64,000 nucleotides of DNA from Bdellovibrionales bacterium (GCA_020628165.1 JAHDFM010000021.1:1-64000), one strand, 5' to 3'; counted from the stretch's first letter, positions 27,766-45,078 are shown. Numbers and translations are program-made. Notes: generated from the letters alone by a model not told the origin.

Positions 27766-29061
27766 TCAACCCACTTGTTTTTTGTCTGTCATCGAAAGGT
27801 ATTGATTGATGGCATTGACTAAGTTCTCTTCTGAAATGGGTTTGACCAAACAGAGGTTCATTCCTGAAATGAGACACTTTTCCTTTTCGCTCTTTGTAGC
27901 ACTGGCTGTGAGGGCAAAAATGGGCACGTCCTGCCCTTGTGTTAAAGATCTGATTTTAGCTGTAGCCTCATAGCCGTTAAGAATGGGCATTTGGCAATCC
28001 ATCAAGATGAGATCAGGATTTTCAGCTTGAAACATCTCAACTGCAATTTTACCATTAACAGCCTCAAGCACTCGAAAGCCATTTTTTAATAAAAAAGTTT
28101 TTGTGATGAGCATATTGATGGGGTTGTCTTCCACCACCATGACAGTGCAAGCTTCTAAAAAAGCAGGAACCTCTAAGCTTTCAGTTTCAGTTACTAAGCT
28201 CGCAGACTCTATTGGTATTGTGATTGTAAAGATCGAGCCTTTTCCAATTTGGCTGGTAACGGTCAACTGTCCTTGCATTAGTGTGACTAGTTTTTTAGTG
28301 ATGGATAATCCCAACCCGGTTCCACCAAACTTTTGGTGAATGTCTGCTCCATCTTGTTTGAATTTGTTAAATATAGTTTCAATATTTTCTTGAGATATCC
28401 CAACGCCACTGTCTTTAACAGTGACTTCTAGGCCAGATTTAAGTTTTTTGACACTCACCTGAACTTGACCCTTCTCAGTGAACTTTACCGCATTGCCAAT
28501 GATGTTATAAAAAACTTGCTTCAAACGACTCTCATCACCCAAGAAACCATAATTATCAAAATTCGAAAACTCCAACTCAAATTGAATGTCTTTTTTATTG
28601 CATTTTGCCAACATATTGTTTTTTATTTCAAGAAATAACATTTTTATATCAAAGGGACTATTGCTCAGTTCAAACAATCCCGATTCTATTTTAGAAATAT
28701 CAAGAATGTTATTGATCAAACCTAATAAGGTTTGTGACGACGACATGATATGTTTTATCAAATTGCCTTGGTGCTCATTGAGGCCTGTGTCTTTGAGCAT
28801 TTCTGTGAGCCCCATAATGCCATTGAGAGGTGTGCGAATGTCATGGCTCATATTGGCTAAAAAATCTGATTTCGCGGCATTGGCTTTTTCGGCTTCTCTT
28901 TTAGCTTGCTCAAGCTCTGCCACTCGTTCTTTAACTTGATTTTCTAAAGATTGGTTCAAGTGATAAAGCTCTCTGCTTTTGGCTTCAAGCAGGCTCTCAG
29001 CTTCTTCTTGAGCCTTCTTGATGCGAGCCAGTTTTTTTCTTAAGAGCTCTACGTTATCCAA
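27766..29061 (-). CDS. Hybrid histidine kinase linked to H-NOX (HnoK-like)
   Basis: A 431-residue soluble hybrid kinase. It has an N-terminal coiled coil (residues 1-62) with no sensor or membrane segment, a HisKA domain with His73 in [15 protein letters not shown], a HATPase domain (N box IIGNAVKF, G boxes DSGVGIS and GGTGLGLSI), and a C-terminal receiver with Asp in [15 protein letters not shown]. Lacking its own sensor, it must be controlled in trans. The H-NOX gene ends one base before it begins, which is the arrangement known for H-NOX-regulated kinases where NO-bound H-NOX inhibits autophosphorylation. A phosphorelay to the Hpt protein downstream is inferred. Confidence 0.92.
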
Positions 29062-29062
29062 A

Positions 29063-29602
29063 CTACGACGCTGCCTTAGTTAAAACGAATTGTCGTTCAC
29101 AGGGATTGGAACGATCTTTCACATTTAATTCATAGCTGTCTTTGTAATGCTCAACGGTGGCTTCTATTAACCCTTCAGCTAAATCGGCAAAGGGTCTCTT
29201 TGATTGGTAAAAGATTTCAATATCACCATTGCTTGCATCGACCACATCAATCTTTGGAAGTTCGGCTTCTGGAGTTAATTTTTTAACTTCCACATGAATG
29301 TATTGATCGACCGACTTTAAAAACTCAATAGAATCTTTTCGGTCAAAGTACTCCGGATGAAAGCCATGAAAAGTTTTTAGTAGATGCTTACCAAAGGCTT
29401 TAACTAGGGCTGACCCTGGATGCCCCGACTTCTCTGCTAGCTTTGTAACTAGGGCTAATATTTCAGAGTGATCATAAGTTCCTACAGACGTATAAGCTCC
29501 ACCTGAAGGCAATTCAACCTCATCTAAAAGCTCCTCTGTGAACTCTTCACCGAATTCTTGTTCCATCATTGATATTAACTCTTTAAAAACTAAACCTTTC
29601 AT
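29063..29602 (-). CDS. H-NOX haem nitric-oxide sensor protein
   Basis: A 179-residue stand-alone H-NOX domain that binds haem and senses NO. The proximal haem ligand His103 ([13 protein letters not shown]) and the propionate-binding Y-x-S-x-R motif (Tyr132, Ser134, Arg136 in FYQSKRPF) are present at the expected spacing. The distal-pocket Tyr that stabilises O2 in some H-NOX proteins is not seen at the equivalent position (Leu), which favours NO selectivity over O2. One Cys (168) lies near the C-terminus. It is flanked by two hybrid kinases and sits one base upstream of the second, its presumed partner. Confidence 0.95.
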
Positions 29603-29614
29603 AATTTGCTCCTG

Positions 29615-31405
29615 TTAAACGGCCTGTTTGTTTAGTTTATAGTTTATTAGCCAATAGTAAATTGACTCAATTAAATCTTTTTCAACTATTGGCTTTGTTA
29701 AATAAGCATTCATTCCAGCAGATAAGCACTTTTCCTTATCTCCCTTAATAGCACTGGCTGTTAAGGCAACAATTGGTAAATCATCGACCTTATGGTTCTG
29801 GATCATAGTCCTGATTTCTTTTGTTGCCTCATAGCCATCCATAACCGGCATTTGGCAGTCCATTAAGATCAAGTCAAAGCTCATCTGTTCTATTAATTTA
29901 ACGGCCTCTAAACCATTTTGAACGGCAGACACTTGAAAGTCATACTTATTTAATATTGCTTTGGCAACGAGCGTGTTGATCGGATTGTCTTCCACCAGCA
30001 AGATTTTCTTTTCTTTAAAAACAGAAACATCTAAAGTGGCAAGACTATGAACTTCTGATTTTTTTGAGCTCTTATTTTTGACAGGCTCTAAGGGCAATTC
30101 AACTTTAAAGACACTGCCCTCACCTAGCTGACTGGTCACTGAAACTTTGCCCCCAAGTAAATTGACAAAGTTTTTTGTGATCGGAAGACCGAGCCCTGTA
30201 CCACCAAATTTACGATTGGCAGAATTGTCACCTTGATCAAATTTATTAAAAATTTTATCTAGATATTTATCATCAATTCCAACACCTTCATCTTTGATAG
30301 TAAAAATATAATTTCCTTGCGATTGATCTAAATCAACAAAAACGCAGCCTTGCCGAGTGAATTTGACAGCATTTCCTATTAAGTTGAATAAAATTTGCTT
30401 AATAATGCCTTCGTCATTTTTAACGAATGTTGTTACTGAGTTCTTGATTGATAATTTAACTTTGCAATCATTTTTCTGACTGATAGGCTCTATGATTTTA
30501 ATCACATCTTCAATGCAATTCTTTAGATCAAACTCAACATTTTCAGTTTCCATGCAGCCTGATTCAATTTTTGAAATATCTAAAATATTGTTGATGATTC
30601 TAAGCAATATGGCAGATGATTTTTCAATGTACCCTAACTGTTCTTTTTGCTCCTCATTCAACTGAGAAGATTTTAAATTTTGAGTCATTCCGATGATGCC
30701 ATTCATCGGCGTTCTAATTTCGTGACTCATATTAGCTAAAAATTCGGATTTTGCACGACTGGCCTCATCAGCAGCCTCTTTGGCTTTTTTGAGTTCAAAC
30801 TCCATTTTTTTGATTTTAGTGATGTCGACAAAGGTTCCAATCATACGAACGGGCCTTCCATCATCAGACGTCTCAACTACCTTTCCTCGGTTGAGCACCC
30901 AAAACACTTCACCGTCTTTATCGACTAGCTTTTGTTCAATTTCAAAATTTGATTTTTGACCCATGAGATACAGTGTCACTTCTTGCAACACTTTTTTTTG
31001 TTCACTTTTGGGAATAGCCCTTAACCAATAATCGCTTTTGGCAGAAAACTCATGACTCGGAAAACCGAGTTTGTCTTTTAAGATATCATTGACATAAACC
31101 GACTTTTTGCTCAAATCCCAATCCCATAAATAGTCACTCGTGGCTTCTAAGGCGAGCGAAGATCTTTTTTCGGCATCTTTAACTTTTTGATCAGCCTCTG
31201 ATTTTATCTGTTCATTGAGTTGCATGAGTTCATTCGACATCAGTTGCATGCTGTGCTCAAACTGACGCCTTGCTTTGTCGTTCTCCATATATGACTTGTT
31301 GACCTTATCGATCAGTTTTAGAAACTCTTGCTTATCAATAGAGCCTTTATTATCACTGATCACTTTGAGTTGTCGTATTAAGGTCTTATGTTTTTTTTCT
31401 GCCAA
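29615..31405 (-). CDS. PAS hybrid histidine kinase linked to the FIST/NosP sensor
   Basis: A 596-residue soluble hybrid kinase. The N-terminal helical region (residues 1-80, with RRQFEHSMQLMSNELMQLN) resembles that of kinases encoded beside FIST/NosP proteins. It is followed by a PAS domain (about 82-200), a HisKA with His228 in FLANMSHEIRTPMNG, a HATPase (N box [17 protein letters not shown]), and a receiver with Asp in [15 protein letters not shown]. It begins directly after the FIST gene stop, so the two are coupled. It shares architecture and strong motif identity with the second kinase at 27766, suggesting duplication. Confidence 0.93.
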   Translation of the reverse strand: MAEKKHKTLIRQLKVISDNKGSIDKQEFLKLIDKVNKSYMENDKARRQFEHSMQLMSNELMQLNEQIKSEADQKVKDAEKRSSLALEATSDYLWDWDLSKKSVYVNDILKDKLGFPSHEFSAKSDYWLRAIPKSEQKKVLQEVTLYLMGQKSNFEIEQKLVDKDGEVFWVLNRGKVVETSDDGRPVRMIGTFVDITKIKKMEFELKKAKEAADEASRAKSEFLANMSHEIRTPMNGIIGMTQNLKSSQLNEEQKEQLGYIEKSSAILLRIINNILDISKIESGCMETENVEFDLKNCIEDVIKIIEPISQKNDCKVKLSIKNSVTTFVKNDEGIIKQILFNLIGNAVKFTRQGCVFVDLDQSQGNYIFTIKDEGVGIDDKYLDKIFNKFDQGDNSANRKFGGTGLGLPITKNFVNLLGGKVSVTSQLGEGSVFKVELPLEPVKNKSSKKSEVHSLATLDVSVFKEKKILLVEDNPINTLVAKAILNKYDFQVSAVQNGLEAVKLIEQMSFDLILMDCQMPVMDGYEATKEIRTMIQNHKVDDLPIVALTASAIKGDKEKCLSAGMNAYLTKPIVEKDLIESIYYWLINYKLNKQAV

Positions 31406-32545
31406 TTACTTTTCTCCAATCACTGTGATTGTCATTGTTTGATTGTGTAAATTACAAAACCCGGTTTTCGGGTGAGGTGAAATCTCTCCGTAAGAATAAT
31501 AGCCAACAGAATTGACCCCTTCATTCATGGTCTCAAAAGCCGCCTCGACCTCATCAGAAGTTTGTTGCCCCATGAGAAGACGCCTGCCAATGCAACTGAC
31601 CATCATAGAAAGCCGGTCGCCGACAATGCACTCTGCTTGATCAGATGTCATTTCTGCAGCAGTCGCAGCTCCGTCGATTAAGCGGTCAAAGCTGCCCATC
31701 ATTAAGCGAGCTGTGTGCCCTTCAGGGATCTCACCGGCAAATATCAAACCTTGTTTCTCTTCATCAACACCAACAATTGTTCTTACCAACTCACTGTTGG
31801 GGTCGTCCTCTGGATGAATACAAAGTGGAAACAAAAGACCACTGCCTGGTAATTGCTCGACTTGTTCTTCCGTTAAATATTTTTTATATAAACTCAGTGC
31901 TGGCTGACCATCTAACTCATAAAGAACATTGTCTTCGGCTTTAGTTATTTTTCGCTTCGGACCGAAATTATCCCAACCTCCACAAGAACCATGGCCAATG
32001 ACAATATTGTCACCATACAAAGCCACAGCGACAATTTTTTTAATTTCAGGAGTTTCATTTAAACCAACATAGGTGTTGGTGAATTTATCGTTATCACCAG
32101 CAAGACCACCGGTTATAATAGTGTCATTGCTAACATTACCTTGAATACCAGCAATCAATTGGGTGCCATTAGTGTGCAATCCATCAGCAAAGAGCATGAG
32201 CCCCTTCAAATCATCAGTGGACAGTTCCTTACCTATCACCTCTCCCACTTGGAAAGAGGACTTTACACCTGCTATATCAAATTGCAATACTTTGTAGTTT
32301 GTTTTTTCAAATTTTACGGCGGATACAACTACAGAACCCGTCAAAGCCTCTTTATTGTATATTTCACCACCCGTGCTCAAGCCGATGTAATCATTTGCTT
32401 GATAAAGTTTTTTAACCTCATCTAACAGCTGTTTTTTATTGTCACACTCTGGTGAAAAATAATACGTTACTATATCAAATTTTTGTGAAGAAGCCTCCTG
32501 CTCCCAACCTGTTTCTTCTGTCCATTTATTTGTTTTACAAATCAC
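31406..32545 (-). CDS. nosP: FIST-domain sensory protein, NosP-like
   Basis: A 379-residue soluble FIST protein (FIST_N then FIST_C). Typical segments are GLSTGGEIY, FADGLHTNGTQLIAGIQG, TGGLAGDNDKFTNTYV, and the FIST_C start GHGSCGGWDNFGPKR. FIST proteins encoded next to hybrid kinases have been characterised as NosP, haem-binding NO sensors that control the partner kinase. Haem binding in this one is inferred from context, not from a seen ligand. It begins the signalling block, 14 bases after the manC-type gene, and abuts the PAS kinase. Confidence 0.85.
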   Translation of the reverse strand: MICKTNKWTEETGWEQEASSQKFDIVTYYFSPECDNKKQLLDEVKKLYQANDYIGLSTGGEIYNKEALTGSVVVSAVKFEKTNYKVLQFDIAGVKSSFQVGEVIGKELSTDDLKGLMLFADGLHTNGTQLIAGIQGNVSNDTIITGGLAGDNDKFTNTYVGLNETPEIKKIVAVALYGDNIVIGHGSCGGWDNFGPKRKITKAEDNVLYELDGQPALSLYKKYLTEEQVEQLPGSGLLFPLCIHPEDDPNSELVRTIVGVDEEKQGLIFAGEIPEGHTARLMMGSFDRLIDGAATAAEMTSDQAECIVGDRLSMMVSCIGRRLLMGQQTSDEVEAAFETMNEGVNSVGYYSYGEISPHPKTGFCNLHNQTMTITVIGEK

Positions 32546-32559
32546 AATAATCTCCTTAG

Positions 32560-33927
32560 TTACCCAACTTTTTTCACTCGGCCATAATCATCTTCATACC
32601 TAACGATATCGCTTTCACAGAAACTTTCGCCAAGTTGCACTTCTAGAAAGACAAGTTCATCGGTGGTTGGATTCTCAATTCTGTGTTTTGCTTCTTTATC
32701 AATAAAAATATGTTGTCCTTGAGAAAGGTTAATCTCTTCATCATTTAAAGTCACTTTAGCTTGCCCTTTAAGAACAATCCAATGTTCAGAACGCTTCTGA
32801 TGCGATTGATAAGATAATCTTTTTTGTGGTTTCACAGTGATTCTTTTAAATTTAAAATTATTCTCATCACTGATCACTTCATACTGACCCCATGGACGAA
32901 CAGACTCTGGATCCTTAGATTCACTTTTTTTAAGCTCCTCAAGAGCTGGCTTTATCTTTTCACTTGAATTCTTATGACAAACTAATAAGCCTTGATCACT
33001 ATCAACAACTATTAAATTTTCAACATCTATAAAAATATAATCTTTCTCAGTCTCTGAACAAATGAAGTTACTGTTGTTGTTATCAATCACTTTTTTTTCT
33101 TGGCTGACTAAGTTTAATTTGCCATCTAATTTAGAAATCTGATCCCAACTGCCGAGGTCCACCCAACCTAAATCTGCTGGTATGCATTTTAGATTCTCAA
33201 CTTTTTCAATCAGGCACTTATCTAAACTTATTTTTTCAAGCTGATTGTAAATTTCTTCAACATTTGAAAGATCCTGATTCAGTCGCATGAGTGTTTTCCA
33301 CATGAATGGCAACTTCTTTTTAAATTCTGTGATCATTGTCGAAACTTTAAAAATATATATTCCAGAGTTCCACAAATTACTTTCATCTTGAATGAGATTT
33401 TCAGCCAACGCTTGATTCGGTTTTTCTATGAAGTTGTTAACTGAATATACATCGGCTGCGTGATTTGATTCGATATTGATATAACCATAACCCGTTGCTG
33501 GTTCTGTTGGTTTTATTCCAATCGTTAATATGCTGTCATTTTCCAAAGCGCTGCTAGAGGCAATACTCACCACCTCATTAAATAAACTGACCTTTTCGAT
33601 ATAGTGATCACTTGGAAAAAGACCAACAACTTCACTTTCTTTGCCCTGCATTTGTAAATAACGACACAAAAGGGCAACAGCTGGCCCTGTGTTATTGGCA
33701 TATGGCTCATAAATACACTCTAAATCTTTTAAGGCATCTCTGGCCGCTATGGATTCTTGATACTTTTTAGTCGTTAATAATATCGGACTTTTAAAGTTTG
33801 CCAGTCGCTCGATCGTTTGCTCAATCAAACTTTTGCCAAAAATTTCTAGAAACTGCTTTGGTGTTTTTTCTTTAGATATTGGCCACAAGCGCTGACCACT
33901 TCCGCCTGACATTATTATTGGTATCAT
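32560..33927 (-). CDS. manC: Mannose-1-phosphate guanylyltransferase / mannose-6-phosphate isomerase (type II)
   Basis: A 455-residue bifunctional enzyme making GDP-mannose for polysaccharide synthesis. The N-terminal nucleotidyltransferase domain has GGSGQRLWPISKEKTPKQFL and the FIEKP motif. The C-terminal cupin-type isomerase domain has RPWGQYEV, KRLSYQSHQKRSEHWIVLKG and GQHIFIDKEAKHRI. The start MIPIIMSGGSG at 33927 is chosen over the track's 34011 because GGAG precedes it and the earlier codons do not look coding. It is the last EPS-type gene and is followed after 14 bases by the NO-sensing block. CpsB/AlgA are equivalent names. Confidence 0.95.
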   Translation of the reverse strand: MIPIIMSGGSGQRLWPISKEKTPKQFLEIFGKSLIEQTIERLANFKSPILLTTKKYQESIAARDALKDLECIYEPYANNTGPAVALLCRYLQMQGKESEVVGLFPSDHYIEKVSLFNEVVSIASSSALENDSILTIGIKPTEPATGYGYINIESNHAADVYSVNNFIEKPNQALAENLIQDESNLWNSGIYIFKVSTMITEFKKKLPFMWKTLMRLNQDLSNVEEIYNQLEKISLDKCLIEKVENLKCIPADLGWVDLGSWDQISKLDGKLNLVSQEKKVIDNNNSNFICSETEKDYIFIDVENLIVVDSDQGLLVCHKNSSEKIKPALEELKKSESKDPESVRPWGQYEVISDENNFKFKRITVKPQKRLSYQSHQKRSEHWIVLKGQAKVTLNDEEINLSQGQHIFIDKEAKHRIENPTTDELVFLEVQLGESFCESDIVRYEDDYGRVKKVG

Positions 33928-33961
33928 ACATTCTCCATTCGTAAAAAGTGAAACTATATTC

Positions 33962-33977
33962 AGCTTAGATACAAGCT
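33962..33977. promoter_or_regulatory. Small palindrome upstream of manC
   Basis: AGCTT-6-AAGCT (extended to CAGCTT / AAGCTG) lies about 35 bases before the manC start, within the ~130-base gap to the upstream gene. It could be an operator or weak hairpin. No clear -35/-10 pair was found nearby. Confidence 0.25.
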
Positions 33978-34055
33978 GTTTGCCAAAAATGATGTCATTG
34001 TGACAATCCATCCATAGTTTTGTCTCAGAATAAAAAATTATTGTTAATTACTTAT

Positions 34056-35471
34056 TCAGTCTCTTTTTAATACATTTATTATAATGTATATGAGCATGGC
34101 GGTAAAAATAAATAGGCCAAAATAATACAAATGCATGTATGACAGACTAAAGTTGATGAATGTTTTTCCTGGACCAATGTTCACTGAATGAAAAATTCCA
34201 TATGAAATCAGAGGTTCTTGTTCATGAGTCCACACTTTATGATAGGGCTGGTTTGATTTAAACAGTCTGTGTTTTGAACTTTGCTCAAATGTCCACTTCT
34301 TTGATCTTCTGGTTTTAATATGTTCAAGCTTGTTTGCTTCAGCTGGTAATAGTTCTAACTGACTCTCTTTATTTTGAGATATCATCATAAAATCAAGAGC
34401 TGGCAACCTGGTGTGATTGTGAATACTAAAATCATAGAAAGTCACTTTACTTTGCGTTTTGTACACTCCTTTAAAGTAAATTAAAAAAACAAATTTTTTA
34501 GCGTCTTTGGGAGGGTCTAATAAAGCACTTTTAGTGATTTTTTGATCTTCTGGTTCAATCTCTAACTGATCAATTTGCTCCACTGACAGCTCTACATTAT
34601 TTTCATCCAAATAAATCACTTTTTGATGAAAGTCTTTAACATTCTTTTTTTGAAAGGTGTAATTGAAGTAGAATTCATCGTCATTTTTTAATGAAATAAC
34701 TGGAGCTTGCAGTATGTGCCAATTGCAGGTGTTTTTATTAACCACTGTCCAGTCAACTTGATCGTTTAAATCCTGTCTTAAAAGCGGATCCAAAGCACTA
34801 CAGTGACAACAGACATGTTCTTCCTCATCATCTTTCTCTTCAACCTCTCTTGGAGTAATGCCAGTGTACAACTTTTTTAATTGCTTTAGGCTGGCTAGCT
34901 GCCGCTTTTGGTAATCTTTTGCATCTACCTGAATGGCTAAAGTGTAATCTCCTTTAGGTAAATCGCCGAGCTCTAGTTGATGATAAGATTGTAACAAGCC
35001 TTCATGTTGATACATCTTATTTTCGACGACACCGTCTTCTTTTTTGACCATGAGGTCAATGACATGATTCACTTTTTCGTCTGGCAAATTGTATTTTGTG
35101 ATCTCACCCGTCAATGTGTTCGTGAAATTAAACCACAATTGAGACGAATTGAGACCAACACCACTCACATTAAGCTTTAAGTTTTCACGTTTCTCAAGAT
35201 CGAATTGATAACTGATCGGAAGTTGTGACAAAGTGATCAGCTTGCCAGCAGACAAGTCTGGATAAGATCTCTCAGTTTGCAATATTACAGGACCAAACAC
35301 ATCTAGCTCTGCTTCAAAACTCATTGATCGAGTGTTGCTATCTACCAACCTCTGAACATCTTCTAAAACATTATTGTATTCAGTTTCTGGGATAATCACT
35401 AACTGACTAATGGCATTGAAACCACGGTAGTTTTCAAGCTCAACCTTTAAACTGTTATGATCAGTTATCAC
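34056..35471 (-). CDS. C-terminal fragment of a large periplasmic/membrane protein (apparent frameshift)
   Basis: A 471-residue ORF with a beta-rich, extracytoplasmic-looking body, a CCHCSALDPLLRQDLND cysteine cluster near residue 230, and a single C-terminal membrane helix (YYFGLFIFTAMLIYIIINVL). The annotated start is a GTG with no Shine-Dalgarno sequence. The same frame stays open 45 codons further upstream with coding-like sequence (KEFLVFKNPKGGSIHLNFNG) right into the end of the 904-residue gene. I therefore read it as the C-terminal part of that protein, separated by a one-base frameshift at an A6 run. It could instead be a separate gene started at a rare codon after AAGGGAGG. No family was recognised. 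Confidence 0.6.
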   Translation of the reverse strand: MITDHNSLKVELENYRGFNAISQLVIIPETEYNNVLEDVQRLVDSNTRSMSFEAELDVFGPVILQTERSYPDLSAGKLITLSQLPISYQFDLEKRENLKLNVSGVGLNSSQLWFNFTNTLTGEITKYNLPDEKVNHVIDLMVKKEDGVVENKMYQHEGLLQSYHQLELGDLPKGDYTLAIQVDAKDYQKRQLASLKQLKKLYTGITPREVEEKDDEEEHVCCHCSALDPLLRQDLNDQVDWTVVNKNTCNWHILQAPVISLKNDDEFYFNYTFQKKNVKDFHQKVIYLDENNVELSVEQIDQLEIEPEDQKITKSALLDPPKDAKKFVFLIYFKGVYKTQSKVTFYDFSIHNHTRLPALDFMMISQNKESQLELLPAEANKLEHIKTRRSKKWTFEQSSKHRLFKSNQPYHKVWTHEQEPLISYGIFHSVNIGPGKTFINFSLSYMHLYYFGLFIFTAMLIYIIINVLKRD

Positions 35472-35587
35472 CGGCTTTAATTCGACCCATTCAAACTGTG
35501 ACTTATAAAAGCTTTGCGTGTTTATTTTTGCATGCTCTTTCCCGTTGAAATTTAAATGAATCGAACCTCCCTTAGGGTTTTTAAAAA

Positions 35588-35608
35588 CTAAAAACTCTTT
35601 TCTTTTTT
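35588..35608 (-). other. Apparent -1 frameshift site (A6 run)
   Basis: On the minus strand the 904-residue frame reads ACT AAA AAA GAA AAG AGT TTT TAG. Re-reading one A in the A6 run (35603-35608) opens a frame without stops through the 45 codons before the GTG of the 471-residue ORF. One extra A in the run would fuse the two ORFs. It may be a real mutation, ribosomal or transcriptional slippage, or a homopolymer sequencing error. Confidence 0.65.
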
Positions 35609-38302
35609 AGTAGTCACTTCAAATTCAATTTTGTTGGCTGTTTTAAATTCACCTAGGTCATAAAGATCGAGCTCATGCAGCCACCAGAATATTTTTTCTT
35701 CTGGCAAAGCATCAACAAGAACTGAAAAGCTAACTTTTTTTGCTAGTCTTGGAGTTACAAAAAGAGTTTTAAACTTCACTTTAGAAAAGTTATTGGATTT
35801 ATCTGGGCGAGATAAGTAGGCCACCCCCACTTCTCTTTCTCTGTCATCGTAAAAATGAACTTTTAAATGCAGGCTCTCAGCATTTTTTCCAGACAGAGAC
35901 AAGTCAATGGCATATGGATGAGCCTCTTCAATGGCAAATTTATTGGTTTTAAAGATCTTCCAAATTTTACTTGGAGGTTCCGCATTAACAACACCAATCA
36001 CTTTGGGTTCATTGAGTTTTTGGTTGGGATGCACTTGCACTAAAATATTGTCACTCAAAATTTCTCGGCGAAATAAGCCTTCATTGATAAAGTCATTGAT
36101 TCCTTTAATATGTCGACCTTTCACAGAAAGTAAACGATAGGCTGGTAAATTCAATTTAGCATCAGAAAAGGTGGCAGCGACACCATCAGAATAATCGACA
36201 GGACGATCTCTAGTTGAAGTATTGCTTGATTTTAAAAACCAATCCCACTCACTTTTATAAATAGACGTCTTTGACCACATCAAGTGAGACATCGATCGAT
36301 CCAAATGATCAAATGGCAGGTGACGATACCTTTTATCGATAAACGAGAGGGCGAGATCATCTATTCCACGATAATCAAAGGTCAAATCAAGCTGTCTTAT
36401 TTTTTCAAGTGTGTTTTCTTGTTGTCCAGAAAAAATAAGGCCACTCACTTTATTTTGATCTAATAAATGAGCATACAAAAGAGCCCGAGAGTACCCATAG
36501 GGTGTCACGACATTGTGTTGATAAAGGTGCCCACCACCAGACTGATAATTCTCAATGTCATAAAAGCTATTTGCTGTTGTTGAGCTCGTTAAATTCATGC
36601 CATATTGCACTGCTAATAACTCTGCGTTAAAGGCCTCTTTGTCGGCAAAAGCATCAAATTGTTTTTGATACACCAATTGGTCGACAAAAAGTGGGTTTAA
36701 CAAGCTCGGCAATTTTCGTGTTTGTCCGTGATCAATGAGACTCTGTAGATATCTGTAGAGGTAATTGACTTCCGTTTTATTGCCTTCGTATTGAAAGGTG
36801 GTGTCTTTTGTGGTGCCGTAGACGTTGAAATCCCCTACGCTCTTGCCTATTTGACTGCTGTATTTATTTTTATTCCAGTTAAGAGTAGCCACATTTCTTG
36901 CAGAATCCACTCTATTTTCAGCTTGTGGCAAGTAAATCACTTTGTGATTGTTATGTGTTAATTGTTTATTTTTTTCTTGTAATGTTTGTGATAACGGCTC
37001 TGGCTTATAAAGGTTAAAAAAGAAATTTTTATAATAAGGGTAATTCCACAGACCAAGCACTAAAACAAAAACTGAAGAAACAACCCAAGTGATTTTTCGG
37101 TTCACACAAATCTTAATAAGCGCTAGAGCAACAAAGACTCCTTGCAAAAACATCATGACACCAACGAGCTTATTGGGGTCCCTAAACAATTTGCCCAAAA
37201 CAGGGATTTTAAAGACAATAAAACTATGAAAAGGTGCTAGTAAACTATAGTAAGACCCTGTCGATAAAACAAATAGAATGAAATATAAAATTGCAAACAA
37301 AGTGATGAGTGGTTTCGTACCAACATACCTAAGAATTGCAAAAAGCACGAGGACAAAAAGTAGAATCCCAGCCACATAAAACCCAAGATTTAAAAAGTCT
37401 TGAGGCATCATTCCCCACCAGTAGCTGTTAGAGAGTAATATATTTAAGGCTGAACTCTCTCTGGAGAACATCACCAAAGTGTCTAATACGTTTATATTTG
37501 CCTGACTGGTCATCTTACCAGTGACAGTTGCTAAAACATAAGGGACCAACCAATAAAAACAAGCCAGAAAAGTCAAAAATGATAAAATGCTTAAATTCTT
37601 AAGATACACTAATAAAAAGTGCTTTTTATTTTTTCTTGTTTTAAACACAAGCTTCAAAACAATAGAAGACAAGTAAAGAAAAAGTAAGGTAAGAAAAATA
37701 AATAGAAAATAATGAATCGCCGCTGACGCTAAAGAGATCGCCACAGCAAACTTCACCATAACAAACCACTCCGTTTTTTGCTCTGGATTGTATTTATCAG
37801 AAAACACACATAAGTAATAATGAATGACCAAAGGAAACAAAGCATAGCCACACAGTAAATAAGTGTGCTGAATTCTAACGATGAACCATGGGTTCATGGC
37901 ATACATAAGGCCAGCGAGAATTGAAACAGTGTAGATTTTTTGTAGGTCTTCAATTTGTAGGTATTTTTTTAAAAAGGTGCTCATGAATTGATAAAAACAC
38001 AGACCAGAAAGAACGATCAGCTGCCAAACAAAGACTTTTGTTAAAATCTCTCCTCCCAAAACGTAAGATATCAAATAGCTGGGTAAGATAAAGAACAAGC
38101 GTGGTAGGTTCATCAGCGTCGTCGTGTTGAACCTCTGGTTCCAGATTGTAAAAATCTCTTCAAGGTAGCGAGTGGTGTCTTCACCAACAGCGATGTCACT
38201 AAAAATGATCATCCCGTCTCGAAATAATGGCATTGAGCATATCGTCAGTAAGAAACTTAAAAAAATAAGTCCTCTATGATAACTTAACAATTTACTTCTC
38301 AA
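35588..38302 (-). CDS. Large polytopic membrane protein, GT-C/YfhO-like (N-terminal part)
   Basis: A 904-residue protein with roughly 10-12 membrane helices in the first ~430 residues and a long periplasmic region after them. The topology and the motifs after the first helix (FSDIAVGEDTTRYLEEIFTIW; MNPWFIVRIQHTYLL) resemble GT-C-type glycosyltransferase or YfhO-like membrane proteins of polysaccharide loci, but no exact family was identified. It starts with TTG overlapping the end of the GT2 gene. It ends at TAG shortly after an A6 run; slipping back one base there joins it to the next ORF, giving about 1,415 residues with a C-terminal membrane helix. Confidence 0.75.
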   Translation of the reverse strand: MRSKLLSYHRGLIFLSFLLTICSMPLFRDGMIIFSDIAVGEDTTRYLEEIFTIWNQRFNTTTLMNLPRLFFILPSYLISYVLGGEILTKVFVWQLIVLSGLCFYQFMSTFLKKYLQIEDLQKIYTVSILAGLMYAMNPWFIVRIQHTYLLCGYALFPLVIHYYLCVFSDKYNPEQKTEWFVMVKFAVAISLASAAIHYFLFIFLTLLFLYLSSIVLKLVFKTRKNKKHFLLVYLKNLSILSFLTFLACFYWLVPYVLATVTGKMTSQANINVLDTLVMFSRESSALNILLSNSYWWGMMPQDFLNLGFYVAGILLFVLVLFAILRYVGTKPLITLFAILYFILFVLSTGSYYSLLAPFHSFIVFKIPVLGKLFRDPNKLVGVMMFLQGVFVALALIKICVNRKITWVVSSVFVLVLGLWNYPYYKNFFFNLYKPEPLSQTLQEKNKQLTHNNHKVIYLPQAENRVDSARNVATLNWNKNKYSSQIGKSVGDFNVYGTTKDTTFQYEGNKTEVNYLYRYLQSLIDHGQTRKLPSLLNPLFVDQLVYQKQFDAFADKEAFNAELLAVQYGMNLTSSTTANSFYDIENYQSGGGHLYQHNVVTPYGYSRALLYAHLLDQNKVSGLIFSGQQENTLEKIRQLDLTFDYRGIDDLALSFIDKRYRHLPFDHLDRSMSHLMWSKTSIYKSEWDWFLKSSNTSTRDRPVDYSDGVAATFSDAKLNLPAYRLLSVKGRHIKGINDFINEGLFRREILSDNILVQVHPNQKLNEPKVIGVVNAEPPSKIWKIFKTNKFAIEEAHPYAIDLSLSGKNAESLHLKVHFYDDREREVGVAYLSRPDKSNNFSKVKFKTLFVTPRLAKKVSFSVLVDALPEEKIFWWLHELDLYDLGEFKTANKIEFEVTTKKEKSF

Positions 38303-39185
38303 TCAGTCCTAATTTAAATTTATTTTTAATCACTTGATTCACGGCAAGTAGACTCAACAATATATACATATTGATCAGACCAGACGTCTTTAATGGATTT
38401 TTTAAATACATTCTTAAAGATTTTAGCGAGTACAAATAAGGTCTAAAAAAATAACTTCTTTTCACGGCCTTTAAAAATCCGCCCTCTTCATTTTCTAAAG
38501 TTTTGTTCATTTGAGAAAAATAATAGTTTTTTTTCTGCAATATATTTTTAAGTGTGACCAAGCCTTCATCGTGCTCTAAGTGCGTTTTTGTGGCACGCAT
38601 AACTCGTCCACCCCTCTCTATTATTCTAATGGTAGGTTGCGTTTCTTCAAACGAAATTTGTCGATGATCTAGACCACCAGACCTCAAATATTCTGACACT
38701 CTCCAAAAACGAGCTGCTTCTACAGAGTTGCTGTCTAAATCTGAACCCACGTCGTTTATGATAGTTCGCTCAAACACCTTAACTTGGGTCATAAAATTAT
38801 TATGTTTCGAAACTGGCTTTTCTGGTATGACTAAGGCACTGACACTTTCGTCTTGCAACTCTTGCATACATGTTTCTATTAAATTATCAGCTAACACCAT
38901 GTCGGAATCGATAAACAAAATATAATCACAGCGAGCTGTGAATGCCATATTGATGCAGTCTTGTCGAGTCAAACCCCTTTCTCTATGCTCAGCTAATTTA
39001 ATTTTAAAAAAATCATACTTTTGTTCAAACTCTCTTAAAATGACTGGTGTTTGATCTTTTGAGCCATCATCAACAATGAAGACTTCAAACCTGTGTTCTG
39101 TTTTTTGATTGACGATCGCCATAAGGACATTCTCAATTATTTTTTCATTGTTAAAAGTTGTTACGCAAATTCCTATTTTTTCCAT
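38292..39185 (-). CDS. Glycosyltransferase family 2
   Basis: A 297-residue GT-A fold enzyme. The N-terminal VTTFNNEKIIENVLMAIVNQ, VFIVDDGSKDQT and the DxD motif in ILFIDSDMVLADN are diagnostic of GT2. The C-terminal part has weakly hydrophobic segments (LINMYILLSLLAVNQVI) that may associate with the membrane. It is likely to transfer a sugar from a nucleotide donor to a lipid-linked acceptor in the EPS pathway. It lies 33 bases after the GT4 gene and overlaps the start of the large membrane protein. Confidence 0.92.
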   Translation of the reverse strand: MEKIGICVTTFNNEKIIENVLMAIVNQKTEHRFEVFIVDDGSKDQTPVILREFEQKYDFFKIKLAEHRERGLTRQDCINMAFTARCDYILFIDSDMVLADNLIETCMQELQDESVSALVIPEKPVSKHNNFMTQVKVFERTIINDVGSDLDSNSVEAARFWRVSEYLRSGGLDHRQISFEETQPTIRIIERGGRVMRATKTHLEHDEGLVTLKNILQKKNYYFSQMNKTLENEEGGFLKAVKRSYFFRPYLYSLKSLRMYLKNPLKTSGLINMYILLSLLAVNQVIKNKFKLGLIEK

Positions 39186-39218
39186 TTTAAAATCCTTTTA
39201 TAAATTTAATGTTAATTG

Positions 39219-40370
39219 TTAAGCAGCTTTCCCTACGAATTCGTCAAATGCCGAGGCTGTGTTTTCCCAGCGGAACTGTAATGAATACTTATAAGCCTCG
39301 TATCTAAATTTTTCATAACTTAAGTGATCAAACATCAGTGATTTTATATTTTCAAACAGCTCATCGCTGTTATTGACCTTACAAAGAACTCCTGCTTGAC
39401 CTAAATTTACGGCGTCCCTCAGGCCTGCACTGTTATAAACAATACTAGGTGTGCCAAGAATGGCGGCTTCCGTCACACCTAAGCCCCAACCTTCACGTCT
39501 TGATGGGTAAACCAAAAGCTTGGCCTTTTCCATGTACATCAGCTTATCTTCTTCACTCACTCGCCCAAGCAAGGTCAGAGTTCTGTGATTCTTTGGGTTA
39601 TATGTGTCCGAGAGTGTAATGTTGTTTTCACGACAAAGTGGCTCTAAAACATTTTTGATGTAGTCTTCGTTCTTTTTACCAATAATAACAAACTGAGCGT
39701 AAGGGTTAATTTTCAAGTACTTAATGAAAGCCTTGGTCGCATCTGGCAAGCCTTTGTACTCTGAGTATCTTCCAACATAAATCATTAATTGGTTGTCTCT
39801 TTTACAAGCTAGCGGCTTAGTAATTGGTTTGTGGTCAACCCCTTCAGGTAAAATGGCAATGTTGTTTGTTTCGAAACCGACGTCTAACAAGTCACTGCGT
39901 GTGCTGTTAGATACTGTTAGAGCTTTTCTGCGATTGTAAATTTTTAGCAAAAGATCTTCACTTTTCTCACCCATAAAAGCAAAAATGCGGCTCATTTTTA
40001 TTTTCCAAATTTCACGGGTGAGTTGATGAATAAAAAAGACACCCTTATCTTTAGGGACCCAAAAAGGAGTGAAAAAGCGATGAGTGTTGCACTGATCCAC
40101 AACAAACTTAATGCGTTTCATATTTAAAAAGTAAAACATCATGGCGTGAAAGATCACAGAAATCCAGTTGCCATTTTTAATATAGATGATACCATCTTTT
40201 TTTGTCACACGCTCGCAACCTTCAACTTTTGTGGAGAAATGAACAATGTTATAATCTTTTTTACTTTCACATCGCTTGAGCATTTCAGTGGTAAAAACCT
40301 CAGCACCACCAGCACTTGGATGATCGATATCTCTCCATGATAAAAATAAGATCATTTGCTTTTTAGTCAT
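39219..40370 (-). CDS. Glycosyltransferase family 4
   Basis: A 383-residue GT-B fold retaining glycosyltransferase. Visible features are the N-terminal SAGGAEVFTTEML, the mid-protein IYVGRYSEYKGLPDATKAF, and the C-terminal donor-binding YPSRREGWGLGVTEAAILGTPSIVY with the E-x7-E-like motif. The donor sugar is not readable, though the nearby GDP-mannose enzyme makes mannose plausible. It overlaps the flippase gene stop by one base, so it is in the same operon. Confidence 0.93.
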   Translation of the reverse strand: MTKKQMILFLSWRDIDHPSAGGAEVFTTEMLKRCESKKDYNIVHFSTKVEGCERVTKKDGIIYIKNGNWISVIFHAMMFYFLNMKRIKFVVDQCNTHRFFTPFWVPKDKGVFFIHQLTREIWKIKMSRIFAFMGEKSEDLLLKIYNRRKALTVSNSTRSDLLDVGFETNNIAILPEGVDHKPITKPLACKRDNQLMIYVGRYSEYKGLPDATKAFIKYLKINPYAQFVIIGKKNEDYIKNVLEPLCRENNITLSDTYNPKNHRTLTLLGRVSEEDKLMYMEKAKLLVYPSRREGWGLGVTEAAILGTPSIVYNSAGLRDAVNLGQAGVLCKVNNSDELFENIKSLMFDHLSYEKFRYEAYKYSLQFRWENTASAFDEFVGKAA

Positions 40371-41497
40371 TAATAACTCCTTTTATTTAAAAATAAGTAA
40401 ATATATGCAAAGACAAAAACCAACATAGTGATGATTAAACTTTGAAGACTGAGTGAAAAAGTCACTCCAGCATCTATGGTTAATGTCGTAATTAGAATAA
40501 AACCAACAAACAAAATGTTATAAAAGTTGAGTTTTCTTAAAGAGTAGTAAAATGAAAGAATAAAAACCAAAACCCCAACAAAGTATTTCACTAAGTAGTA
40601 ATCTATGTGAGCAACAGCTCCGGCAAACTCCTCACCAAAGAACAACGAGACCACTGGCTCACCGAGAACTTTGTAACCTATCAAAAATGTAATGAATAGT
40701 GGACACACCATCAAAAGGTACCTTTTCATTAGTTTAACAATAGACTCCTCGTTTTTAAAAGTATTAGTTTCAAACTGCATATAGGTGTAAGTCAGAAGAA
40801 GTGGAAGTTGGGCAAACCTTACAGCTAAGGTGATCACTGGCGAGTTCTCAACAGCAAACATTTCAAAAGCGAGAATATCAATATTTAAGAAGGTAAAGAA
40901 AAGCATTTGATTGGCAAATAGAGACTTCTCTTTGAAGAAAGAAACTCCTTTAACTTGTGTGATTTTATATGAGTGCCTTTTCCATACAAAGTATGTAATC
41001 ATCAAAACTAAAAACTGGACTGTAAAAAATAGAATTAACATAAGTATATTGTTCATTACAAAGGCCAGAGAAAATATGACCAGAATAAGGAATTTTAACA
41101 ACATTTCAGCATAGAGGCTCTTGTAATAACACAGCTTCTTGCCTTGGCTGATTAACAATCCACGAATGAGACATATCATGGGGTGTTGTACGCATATCAA
41201 AATGATAAAAACAGAATAAAGTGGTGACTTTAAGAAAACCATTCCAATAAACAGTGACAGGGTAACGACAAATACTATTGAAGAAAGAAGGTAATTCGTT
41301 GCAACTTTGCCATTCATAGAAATTGTTTTTATCTGAACCGTCGAGCCAATAACAAAGACGATCGACATGACGGACAGTATTGTGTTTATGTAGCCAAAAT
41401 CATCGATGGATAAAACATTCGCGCTGACAATGAGAAATAAGTAGTTAAGTACAAACAAGGGCAAATCTAATAGAATGATCAGTTTCTTAGACATCAA
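40370..41497 (-). CDS. Polysaccharide flippase-like membrane protein (Wzx/MOP superfamily)
   Basis: A 375-residue polytopic protein with around ten to twelve helices, almost entirely hydrophobic with few charged residues. The N-terminal pattern (LFVLNYLFLIVSANVLSIDDFGYINTILS) and the operon position between glycosyltransferases and an outer-membrane protein fit a lipid-linked oligosaccharide flippase. It is somewhat short compared with the 400-480 residues usual for Wzx, and identification rests on topology and context. It overlaps its upstream neighbour by four bases. Confidence 0.75.
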   Translation of the reverse strand: MMSKKLIILLDLPLFVLNYLFLIVSANVLSIDDFGYINTILSVMSIVFVIGSTVQIKTISMNGKVATNYLLSSIVFVVTLSLFIGMVFLKSPLYSVFIILICVQHPMICLIRGLLISQGKKLCYYKSLYAEMLLKFLILVIFSLAFVMNNILMLILFFTVQFLVLMITYFVWKRHSYKITQVKGVSFFKEKSLFANQMLFFTFLNIDILAFEMFAVENSPVITLAVRFAQLPLLLTYTYMQFETNTFKNEESIVKLMKRYLLMVCPLFITFLIGYKVLGEPVVSLFFGEEFAGAVAHIDYYLVKYFVGVLVFILSFYYSLRKLNFYNILFVGFILITTLTIDAGVTFSLSLQSLIITMLVFVFAYIYLFLNKRSY

Positions 41498-43242
41498 AAA
41501 GGCACTCCTAATTGAAAAGTGAGGAGAGCTTGTGACTTTTTGCTTGCCCCTTCATTGGTTATTATGGATATGTTAATTTTTCCCGAGATATGAGACTTTT
41601 CAGTTTGATATTTTTTATGCAACTCAATAGCATAAGTGCTCTGACTGTACTCATCAATGGTGATGTCATTTTCATGAGAATAAATCAAACTGTAATTAAA
41701 ACTTTGATCGTGCTCATGTGTGAATGTCCCAACCTGTTTTAAACTTTGTACATTGGATCCTAAATTTAAGTTCAAATGTTCGATGTAATACTTTAGTTGC
41801 ATATTTGGTTGTATAAAGTATGTGAGTCCTAGATAGCTTCTTTGTTCAAAAGTATTCACATCTTCATTGAATATTTTTTCAGAAAAGCCGAGATCAAAAT
41901 TTAAATTTTTAATCAGGCTTTTATTTCCGTACCCTAAGCTATAACCCATCACAGTGAAGACTTCTCCACTTCTCAAGATCTCTTCACGGCCTTGATGAAG
42001 TTCGATCGAAACATTTTGAGTTTTTGCTTGCGTCTCAACGATTGTTTTATTTGAAACTGTATAGGCATTTCTTATTTGGCTGAATTCTGAGTTTTCATAA
42101 GTGTCGAGCAATTGAACAGCAGATTTGTTTTCAATTAAGAAGCCATTGAAATTTTTAACGTAGGTCAAGTGCCCAGCCAGGGCAACATCGATCTCTTCAT
42201 TTTTATTGTCTTTAATATTTAAATGAGTGTTAATACCCAGTGTGAAATTGTCCGAAAGAATGTGATTCATTTCTAAGTTTAGGTAGTTACTGGCAAAAAC
42301 ATACTCGTTGCTATCTTGATTTTCGATATCAGAAAATGCTAATTCGTAGGGTTTAAATACAGAGTAAGTGTGACCTAATGAAAACTTGGTGAATGTGTTT
42401 GAAAACTGATGCACTCCAAATTTATCAACATAAAAGCCATGTCTCGACTGAATCTCTTTAGAGTTTGGATTTAAACATTGCTTTCCTTTTTCAAAATAAC
42501 TGAATGAGGAACTATAGTCTTTCATGTCTTTGTACATATCTGAGATAAAAAGCAAAGTGTGAGGTTGTTGTGAAAGGGCTTCCAGCTTGTTCATTTGCTC
42601 TTTGGCTTTATTGAATTCAGTGGTTTTGATCAAAATTCTGATACTTTCTTTCAAACCATCAACATAACCACCTTGACCTGATTGCAACTGAGTAAGAGTT
42701 GAATTTGCTTCGTTCAGCATACCTTTCTCTTCGTAGGCTTTTGCCATAAACCTTAATTCAAAATTTGATTTTTTTGCTTTCTGTGTGATGGCAATGATTC
42801 TATCTAAATATTTAATCTCATTTGTTTTTTTGTAGAGCTGAAATAATGTATCCACTTGAGAAGAGGACGTCTCACTTTTAACAAGACTTTCAAGTGAGAT
42901 GAGGCCATTGTCATACATAGCAAAGTTGATCCAAGACCCGGAAAGTTGCAATTCAGCTAACTTTTGTAAGAATTGAACCCTAGCAGGTTTCGAATCAAGG
43001 TGATACACGATGGCATAAGCTAAACCAACATCTCCCATTTTCATTGAAGACACTTCTATAGATTGAATGACTTTATGAGCCTCGACATAAAAATTGCTAG
43101 TGAATAGCATTCTCGCTACTTGCATGCGTTGATCCATTGTGGTCCCGTGCAGTGCAAGAGATTGTGGAGAACAGTCTTCTTGCCCCCAAACTGTCATGGT
43201 AACAAATATGTTCATTAAAATTATAAGTCTAATATGTTTCAT
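41494..43242 (-). CDS. Secreted TPR protein with C-terminal beta-barrel-like domain
   Basis: A 582-residue protein with a signal peptide (LIILMNIFVTMTVWG). The N-terminal ~270 residues carry TPR-like helical repeats (FMAKAYEEKGMLNEANSTLTQL; LFISDMYKDMKDYSSSFSYFEKGKQ). The remaining half alternates hydrophobic and polar residues in antiparallel-strand fashion, with YSLGYG, YLGLTYFIQPNMQLKYYIEHL and a terminal Phe. This layout resembles TPR-plus-barrel polysaccharide exporters such as PgaA or BcsC, or YaiO-type barrels, so export of the polysaccharide is the best guess. The identification is by architecture only. Confidence 0.72.
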   Translation of the reverse strand: MKHIRLIILMNIFVTMTVWGQEDCSPQSLALHGTTMDQRMQVARMLFTSNFYVEAHKVIQSIEVSSMKMGDVGLAYAIVYHLDSKPARVQFLQKLAELQLSGSWINFAMYDNGLISLESLVKSETSSSQVDTLFQLYKKTNEIKYLDRIIAITQKAKKSNFELRFMAKAYEEKGMLNEANSTLTQLQSGQGGYVDGLKESIRILIKTTEFNKAKEQMNKLEALSQQPHTLLFISDMYKDMKDYSSSFSYFEKGKQCLNPNSKEIQSRHGFYVDKFGVHQFSNTFTKFSLGHTYSVFKPYELAFSDIENQDSNEYVFASNYLNLEMNHILSDNFTLGINTHLNIKDNKNEEIDVALAGHLTYVKNFNGFLIENKSAVQLLDTYENSEFSQIRNAYTVSNKTIVETQAKTQNVSIELHQGREEILRSGEVFTVMGYSLGYGNKSLIKNLNFDLGFSEKIFNEDVNTFEQRSYLGLTYFIQPNMQLKYYIEHLNLNLGSNVQSLKQVGTFTHEHDQSFNYSLIYSHENDITIDEYSQSTYAIELHKKYQTEKSHISGKINISIITNEGASKKSQALLTFQLGVPF

Positions 43243-43622
43243 GCGGCTTTTTCCAATAAGTTTTGCACCATATTGATAAAGTAAGTTTTATCGAGGTTCA
43301 TTGGTTTAAGAAGAACTTTATCTAATCCAATTTCATTAATGGCATGAATAAGAATGTTGATATCAGCTGTGCCTGTGATTAAAACCTTAAAGCAATTTTC
43401 TTGATAGGTATTGATATTATTAAGTATTTGAATACCATCAACATCTGGCATCACTAAGTCAGTGATAACGCCATCAAATTGATTTGTTTCAATCAGCTTT
43501 GCAGCTTCTTTTGAGCATTGACAAATTTTAAAGTCAAAGTCAGTTTGTTGAAAAAAAGTCTCATAGATTTTAAGACTCATTATGTTGTCATCGACGATCA
43601 ATATTCTTTTATTTTTTTTCAT
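43239..43622 (-). CDS. Stand-alone response regulator receiver in the EPS operon
   Basis: A 127-residue CheY-like receiver with the acidic pair (LIVDDN), phosphoacceptor Asp in GVITDLVMPDVDG, Thr in VLITGTAD and Lys in LLKPMNL. It has no output domain. It overlaps the neighbouring glycosyltransferase gene (14 bases) and the TPR/barrel gene (4 bases), so it is an integral part of the EPS operon, not an insertion. It is likely to control enzyme or exporter activity by direct contact, with a kinase elsewhere. Confidence 0.88.
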   Translation of the reverse strand: MKKNKRILIVDDNIMSLKIYETFFQQTDFDFKICQCSKEAAKLIETNQFDGVITDLVMPDVDGIQILNNINTYQENCFKVLITGTADINILIHAINEIGLDKVLLKPMNLDKTYFINMVQNLLEKAA

Positions 43623-44724
43623 TGTTCAATCCTAAGGCAAAAGTGATTTTTAAAATGGAAACGAGATAGTTTATGCTGTCTTTGATAGGGTCAACATGAG
43701 ATCCATCTTGATCCACACATTCAACGGGAAGTTGCAAGACTCTGAAACGAGCTTTTTTACATAAGTTGAGTAAGTGCAAGTCAGCAGCAAATCCAAGCTT
43801 ATGGCTCACCTTTGGAATAACATACTTTGCAGCACTTGTTTTAATGAGTTTAAAACCTGTTTGAGAATCGTACACTCCTTCAGGCAAAAATGACTTGGTC
43901 ATTAATCTTTTTACAAGACTCATTGTTCTTCGAATGAATGATCTGTTCTCGGCCGTTTTGTCTTTAGTGGCTTGAATCATATCGTAGTAATCGTCTTTAA
44001 TGATTGAGATGGCTTTAACTATGTCAGCTTCAAAGAAAGAGTTGTCAGAATCTAGAAAGAATAAATAGTCTGCATCGCTCTCTTCAAGACCAGCACTATA
44101 AATGCCTGCTTTACGAGTGTTTGCTGATAAGTTTTTAAGATCTAAAAAATGATCGACTAAGATGGAGTTCATCTTAAGTTGAGTCATATTGATGATTCGC
44201 TTTAAAATGTCTTCAGAGTTATCACTACTACCATCATTAACAAACCTGACTTTGGCATCTAGTTGGTACTTGCTAATGATGCTAATAATTTTAGTTAAAA
44301 AATCACTGACATTTTTAATGCGTTGTTCTTCATTAAAGATGGGAATGACAAAAAGTAATTTATGACGAGAAGTTGGTAAATTAGGTTCGAGTATCATTCT
44401 GATATTTTTTTCAAGGCCAAAGTAGTTTTGAGATTTTGTATGAATGGTAAGTAGCCCTTCGTACTCTTTATTTATAATGTCAAAGCGGCAAAGCTCCTCT
44501 GAGTTAATAAAGATGCATTTTGGCTTTAAAACTAAATTGCGAGTTTCACGCTTCACCCAACTGAGGCCTTCTACCGTGTCTACTATGACTAAATCGACAT
44601 GAGTTAAGTCTTTCTTATTGTCGTGCAGACTGAAGTCACAGAATATTTTTACAGTTGAGCCTAGAGAGTTTAAAATCTCTTGGTGATTTTCTGAAAATAT
44701 AACCACATTCTTTTTGTTACTCAT
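43609..44724 (-). CDS. DPM1-like family 2 glycosyltransferase with extra N-terminal domain
   Basis: A 371-residue protein. The C-terminal ~240 residues are a GT2 polyprenyl-phosphate glycosyltransferase type: LFVIPIFNEEQRIKNV, VRFVNDGSSDNSE, the metal-binding DSDNS, and DSQTGFKLIKTSAAK. The first ~120 residues form an additional alpha/beta domain (VVIFSENHQEIL; VDLVIVDTVEG; KCIFINSEEL) that may be a degenerate receiver-like or regulatory fold. The start is moved from 44883 to 44724, where a strong TTGGAGGAAATA precedes the ATG. The upstream codons in the track ORF are repeat sequence. It is the first gene of the main EPS operon. Confidence 0.88.
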   Translation of the reverse strand: MSNKKNVVIFSENHQEILNSLGSTVKIFCDFSLHDNKKDLTHVDLVIVDTVEGLSWVKRETRNLVLKPKCIFINSEELCRFDIINKEYEGLLTIHTKSQNYFGLEKNIRMILEPNLPTSRHKLLFVIPIFNEEQRIKNVSDFLTKIISIISKYQLDAKVRFVNDGSSDNSEDILKRIINMTQLKMNSILVDHFLDLKNLSANTRKAGIYSAGLEESDADYLFFLDSDNSFFEADIVKAISIIKDDYYDMIQATKDKTAENRSFIRRTMSLVKRLMTKSFLPEGVYDSQTGFKLIKTSAAKYVIPKVSHKLGFAADLHLLNLCKKARFRVLQLPVECVDQDGSHVDPIKDSINYLVSILKITFALGLNNEKK

Positions 44725-44841
44725 TATTTCCTCCAACGTTCCATCTGTAATTAGAATAGAGCGAAGGAGTTGGGCAAAAATGATTGAATTAAGAGAATCT
44801 CCCAAAAAAGCCAACCCAACTTGAGACAATCCAAACAAAGT

Positions 44842-45078
44842 ACCATCATCTTGAGTGAAGCGAAGGCCCCAGACAAACGCCACATCAACATCAATGAAGC
44901 TATTTGATTAAAAATTTCATGGTTTAAGTTTGAACCCATCGCTTCGCTGAAGATGACAGATACTTGCTCAGGATGACGAATCTGAGCTCAAAATTACAAC
45001 TCTTCGCTCAAAATGATAAACCTGCTATCAGAACGACAAGTTTGCGCCCAGGATGATAACTCTGAACTAAGGATAATA
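44842..45078. repeat. Palindrome plus degenerate ~20-bp tandem repeats, locus A
   Basis: A left arm (CATCTTGAGTGAAGCGAAGG, near 44848-44867) and a right arm (CGCTTCGCTGAAGATGACA, near 44940-44958) are inverted copies of the same palindrome found near 61.1 kb. The right arm runs into about six degraded 20-bp units such as TTGCTCAGGATGACGAATCT, AGCTCAAAATTACAACTCTT and CGCTCAAAATGATAAACCTG. It occupies most of the 383-base gap upstream of the first EPS gene. Confidence 0.75.

Follow-up and report, generated by a model that had tools for sequence, protein, structure and literature searches.

A probable 13-nt frameshifting deletion in a large GT-C-type glycosyltransferase gene of a Bdellovibrionales EPS-type locus

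The window analysed here is a stretch of 64,000 nucleotides from a Bdellovibrionales bacterium. On one strand it carries two consecutive reading frames, the first ending a few codons after a run of six A and the second lying in the -1 frame. This arrangement raises the question of whether the two frames are separate genes, one gene expressed through recoding or phase variation, or one gene that has been broken, and in the last case whether the break belongs to the organism or to the assembly. The elements concerned are:

35588..38302 (-): ORF A, 5' part of the putatively broken gene; 904 codons, TTG start, premature TAG at 35590-35588; GT-C-like multi-helix N-terminal part (~1-435), then an extracytoplasmic region, with a first jelly-roll CBM-like domain at ~750-890
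34056..35606 (-): frame of ORF B (-1), carrying the 3' part of this gene; no stop between 35606 and 34059, then a stop codon at 34058-34056; encodes beta-sandwich/CBM-like domains plus one transmembrane helix at the C-terminus
35603..35608 (-): A6 run (AAAAAAG), read in the zero frame as T AAA AAA G; the lesion most probably lies elsewhere
35583..35596 (-): junction AGTTTTTAGTTTTT, where the window falls a net 13 nt short of both congeners

One reading frame in the relatives

The initial annotation described the reading frames correctly. ORF A has 904 codons and its zero frame ends ACT AAA AAA GAA AAG AGT TTT TAG, with the stop (35590-35588) shortly past the A6 run (35608-35603), and the -1 frame stays open over the 45 codons that precede the GTG of ORF B at 35471. 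That GTG lacks a Shine-Dalgarno sequence, as had been noted, and is not credible as a start. The open stretch upstream of it had been called protein-like. Its FKNPKGGSI aligns with FKSPKGGSI and FKSKKGGNI of the congeners, and at the junction the codon-usage signal passes from frame 0 to frame -1; the upstream extension of ORF B is genuine coding sequence. Among the 51 ORFs of the window, A and B are the sole same-strand pair arranged in this way.

Scanning one genome per species with an alignment query recovered 35 loci, including two congeners, while a single-protein query against the genome contigs gave zero relatives. The gene is present in two of three congeners and in both of them A and B form a single ORF, of 1,427 aa in G002 (L004:8235-12518) and of 1,310 aa or more in G001, whose copy loses its 5' end at a contig edge. 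The 33 further loci are from Firmicutes (28), Gracilibacteria (2) and archaea (3). All 28 Firmicutes loci (Paenibacillus, Exiguobacterium, Clostridium and Brevibacillus) have both parts in one ORF of ~1,480-1,550 codons, the archaeal loci each hold a single ORF of 1,070-1,120 codons, and in one Gracilibacteria locus (L037) the ORF passes through the junction point and on to the contig end. Gracilibacteria read TGA as glycine, so the other locus of this group (L042), fragmented under table 11, was left out of the split count. With this locus set aside, the two-gene arrangement was found in no relative among the two congeners and the 33 further loci, and the split is unique to this genome among those examined. 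Within the order no closer relative was found outside the genus, and the genome holds no intact second copy of the gene. A profile search of PDB sequences matched nothing, and a plasmid collection gave one weak match, unrelated in appearance.

These comparisons show that ORF A and ORF B are two pieces of one ancestral ORF. The initial annotation had proposed one large membrane protein, with an N-terminal helix bundle, a long extracytoplasmic part and a C-terminal helix, broken in two, and had named homologues consistently encoded as two genes as the observation that would speak against it. The proposal stands, since the relatives (both congeners and the 28 Firmicutes loci) encode the full-length fusion and none encodes two genes. 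Two genuine separate genes were rejected, the arrangement being absent from every relative counted. Intact single-ORF homologues together with an unconserved frame transition are the pattern of a pseudogene or single-lineage frameshift.

Size and position of the lesion

Protein-to-DNA alignment with frameshifts allowed placed the break at 35590-35593, ~10-18 nt past the A6 run and beside TTTTTAGTTTTT. Compared to both congeners, the window has 2 nt where five codons are expected (net -13 nt), and the alignment is flush on both sides, with ungapped KKEKSF on the left and VFKNPKGGSI on the right. The distance from the conserved W-x-H to the Gly-Gly pair provides an independent measure and is 113 nt in the window versus 41-42 codons (123-126 nt) in the relatives. 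The net length change is 13 nt lost at the junction, not at A6. The earlier suggestion that one extra A in the run would restore the protein fails on this point, the shortfall lying past the A run, in TTTTTAGTTTTT: with one base added at A6 the protein is still four residues short in a conserved strand. The absent bases correspond to most of a VYARVF-type beta-strand conserved in all relatives and slippage at A6 would thus not restore the ancestral protein. We also considered a missing A in the A6 run and rejected it; because this model needs a further 12-nt deletion, a single event beside TTTTTAGTTTTT is more economical.

The A6 run itself is unremarkable. The window has a G+C content of 38 %, A6/T6 runs are common in it, and its 237 A/T runs of at least six bases mean that a 40-nt stretch placed anywhere has a ~17 % chance of meeting one.

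The junction (35577-35595) contains a tandem 7-bp direct repeat (AGTTTTT x2) overlapping a 7-bp inverted repeat (GTTTTTA...TAAAAAC), and this combination is a possible mutational hotspot.

Origin of the break

The explanation we favour, with a probability of roughly 0.63, is a recent frameshifting deletion of net 13 nt, confined to this single lineage, in one ~1,430-residue GT-C-type glycosyltransferase gene that would thereby have been inactivated. Slippage or template switching at the short direct/inverted T-rich repeat would be a plausible origin of such a deletion. The truncated 904-aa product would end inside the second beta-sandwich domain, and part B, having neither a start signal nor an export signal, would not be made in useful form. 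Given this truncation and the loss of a useful part B, the enzyme is probably non-functional in this lineage and the polysaccharide would be altered or lost. Changes unique to the window lineage were compared to the sum of the two congener lineages and number 153 versus 166 in the N part and 92 versus 96 in the C part (Fisher p = 0.85). By this measure part B has not diverged in excess, which suggests that any decay of it would be recent.

The main rival is an artefact of assembly or consensus: the gene would be intact in the living organism, and the break would have arisen when a short T-rich repeat was mis-joined or collapsed, or when variants from different strains were combined. In favour of this, the assembly is a draft of 56 contigs, a low-complexity direct/inverted repeat lies at the junction and part B has no sign of decay; its fully open frame of ~510 codons fits an error or residual read-through as well as a recent mutation. 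Singleton frame transitions validated by homology (BLASTp) are moreover expected to be sequencing errors more often than genuine indels (PMC3711429). Against this, a net change of 13 nt is unlike the usual single-base homopolymer error, the flanks are clean, and split-like pairs are rare in the 408 kb of the same assembly over which their rate was sampled. We regard an artefact as possible, though clearly less probable than a real deletion. A break that is both real and tolerated appears unlikely. It would require either that low-level -1 slippage (at A6, or at TTT before TAG) yields some full-length enzyme four residues shorter, or that the 904-aa GT-C part with its first CBM works alone with an altered acceptor range; the split would then represent a functional EPS modification and not a loss. 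A programmed or tolerated -1 recoding event, transcriptional or ribosomal, at A6 or TTT TAG, that yields some full-length protein is very improbable, even though -1 re-pairing is possible at both A6 and T5 and part B is still open and evolving no faster than part A. Recoding is recognised by conserved, clustered sites, and singleton frame transitions are attributed to indel mutations or to sequencing errors (PMC3711429); here the frame transition occurs in no relative and no site is therefore conserved. The A run had been suspected of being slippery, but the nearest in-frame heptamer is T AAA AAA and not A AAA AAG, so that A6 offers no zero-frame heptamer of the X XXY YYZ type shared by the homologues, and no more conserved in-frame slippery heptamer was found. 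Downstream, RNA stability does not exceed that of shuffled sequences (z = -0.39), with no stimulatory structure. Transcriptional slippage would call for a run of ~9 nt and a slip restoring the ancestral protein, whereas the run is of six, the 13-nt lesion lies outside it, and the recoded product would still miss four residues of the conserved strand; selection against slippage-prone A/T runs becomes visible at about nine bases in many genomes (PMC1088944).

Gene fission, with A and B now separately translated functional subunits, is highly implausible. Both frames are intact and a GGAGGT occurs within the B frame at 35570-35565, but this hexamer encodes the conserved glycine pair, and no start codon (ATG, GTG or TTG) follows it at a suitable spacing. 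Of the start sites considered for B, this leaves the GTG at 35471 as sole candidate, which lies ~40 codons into conserved sequence; in addition, the extracytoplasmic domains of B would have no export signal and the break falls within a domain. EPS-type loci are often phase-variable, and both the EPS-like character of this locus and the two-copy 7-bp tandem repeat at the junction could be read as a hypermutable repeat that toggles the enzyme on and off. This is the least probable of the explanations considered, because a net 13 nt is not a multiple of the repeat unit, there are only two copies of which the gain or loss of one still leaves a stop, the repeat is absent in the relatives, and the junction holds no repeat tract whose unit changes would restore the frame. 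Of the causes listed by the initial annotation, recent inactivation and sequence error thus remain, while programmed slippage and phase variation are disfavoured by the lack of a conserved site and of a repeat-unit fit. The frameshift itself is ordinary, and annotating it as recoding is unwarranted.

The locus, the protein family and related systems

The split gene lies among the following genes of an EPS-type locus:

32560..34011 (-): ManC-type mannose-1-phosphate guanylyltransferase / mannose-6-phosphate isomerase
38292..39185 (-): GT2 glycosyltransferase, upstream in the same operon, overlapping the start of ORF A
39219..40370 (-): GT4 glycosyltransferase
40370..41497 (-): probable Wzx/MATE-like flippase; the congener ortholog matches Polysacc_synt below the cut-off
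43609..44883 (-): GT2, polyprenyl-phosphate glycosyltransferase-like, with an N-terminal extension

The neighbourhood in the congener G002 matches that of the window, with GT2, response regulator, TPR protein, flippase, GT4 and GT2 upstream and a FIST protein and histidine kinase downstream. The EPS-type set (window 32560-44883: polyprenyl-phosphate-glycosyltransferase-like GT2, GT4, GT2, the giant GT-C/CBM protein, ManC and sometimes the flippase) recurs partly near the homologue elsewhere (L012-L036, L043). Partial sets are seen in Paenibacillus, Exiguobacterium, Clostridium, Brevibacillus and a Bathyarchaeota bin, and most of the linked glycosylation genes are also near the homologue in Firmicutes. 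Within the order to which the window belongs, the set is found in only 3 of 141 genomes, all of one genus, and this distribution suggests horizontal transfer.

The N-terminal extension of the polyprenyl-phosphate-glycosyltransferase-like GT2 (~120-170 aa) is kept in the congener (L004:1550-2674). It has no Pfam match and, by eye, resembles a degenerate receiver domain. Directly downstream of the EPS genes (window 27766-32545) are a FIST-domain sensor, NosP-like by a sub-threshold match, and histidine kinase/receiver proteins. The FIST and kinase genes hold the same place in the congener, which suggests signal control of the locus.

The predicted model of part A (pLDDT 71, pTM 0.66) has ~11-12 membrane helices and, after them, domains of mixed and of beta structure. 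The long helices lie within residues 2-431, and D36 in the first loop is at least 90 % conserved, which agrees with the GT-C pattern of 7-13 transmembrane helices and an acidic residue in the first extracytoplasmic loop. The best Foldseek matches of this model are DPY19, EmbC, PglB and AglB (E 2e-4 to 6e-4), with TM-scores of only 0.15-0.32 at a model pLDDT of 71; CBM jelly rolls are also matched. Part B is rich in beta structure and gives CBM-like matches; it has a single helix at its C-terminus. In Pfam and NCBIfam, neither the ~1,450-aa protein nor its relatives reach any family; sub-threshold there are weak CBM and Golvesin matches in the C-terminal part. The best-scoring named family is MmpA (NF053599; helix bundle, residues 77-467, E = 1e-8), whose 210-bit cut-off is far from reached at 34.2 bits. 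PF11847 (AftD) stays short of its gathering score, with E = 0.042 in 1 of 20 relatives. The likeliest description is that of a GT-C glycosyltransferase resembling AftD and MmpA, outside any named family, in which jelly rolls that bind carbohydrate and a C-terminal helix complete the protein. Its likeliest function would be to take a sugar from a lipid carrier and attach it to a polysaccharide lying outside the inner membrane, which fits the linked polyprenyl-phosphate-glycosyltransferase-like GT2, flippase, GT4, GT2 and ManC.

A by-product of this analysis is a family of ~1,450-residue GT-C/CBM membrane proteins that is conserved between phyla, has no Pfam or NCBIfam entry and merits a family model. 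Its members belong to an EPS-type locus, conserved in part, of Bdellovibrionales, Paenibacillus, Exiguobacterium, Clostridium and Brevibacillus; Gracilibacteria and archaea have weaker relatives. The family probably adds sugar to a surface polysaccharide at the outer side of the inner membrane.

Among known systems, the mycobacterial arabinofuranosyltransferase AftD (PF11847; PDB 6W98) is similar in length, the literature giving it as a 150-kDa protein, and likewise combines an N-terminal GT-C helix bundle, a long extracytoplasmic part with carbohydrate-binding modules and a C-terminal helix or helices. It differs in having several C-terminal helices where the protein here has one, the sequence match to PF11847 is below any cut-off, and 6W98 is not among the Foldseek matches listed. 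MmpA, which acts in Corynebacterineae trehalose-lipid transport (PMC8698533), gives the best score of the named families; it has 474 residues in C. glutamicum and no large CBM region, and the score is far under the cut-off. A partial resemblance of MmpA to the first 668 residues of AftD is reported (PMC8698533), and in AftD and Emb proteins a GT-C core is joined to CBMs (PMC11127046). The three-component systems of extracytoplasmic glycosylation, which consist of a GT-C enzyme, a polyprenyl-phosphate-sugar synthase and a flippase (GT136, PMC11127046), provide a further comparison. Pentofuranose-synthesis genes were not identified in the locus here, where ManC suggests a GDP-mannose-derived sugar. 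Like those systems, the locus has a polyprenyl-phosphate-glycosyltransferase-like GT2, a probable flippase and a GT-C protein with CBMs.
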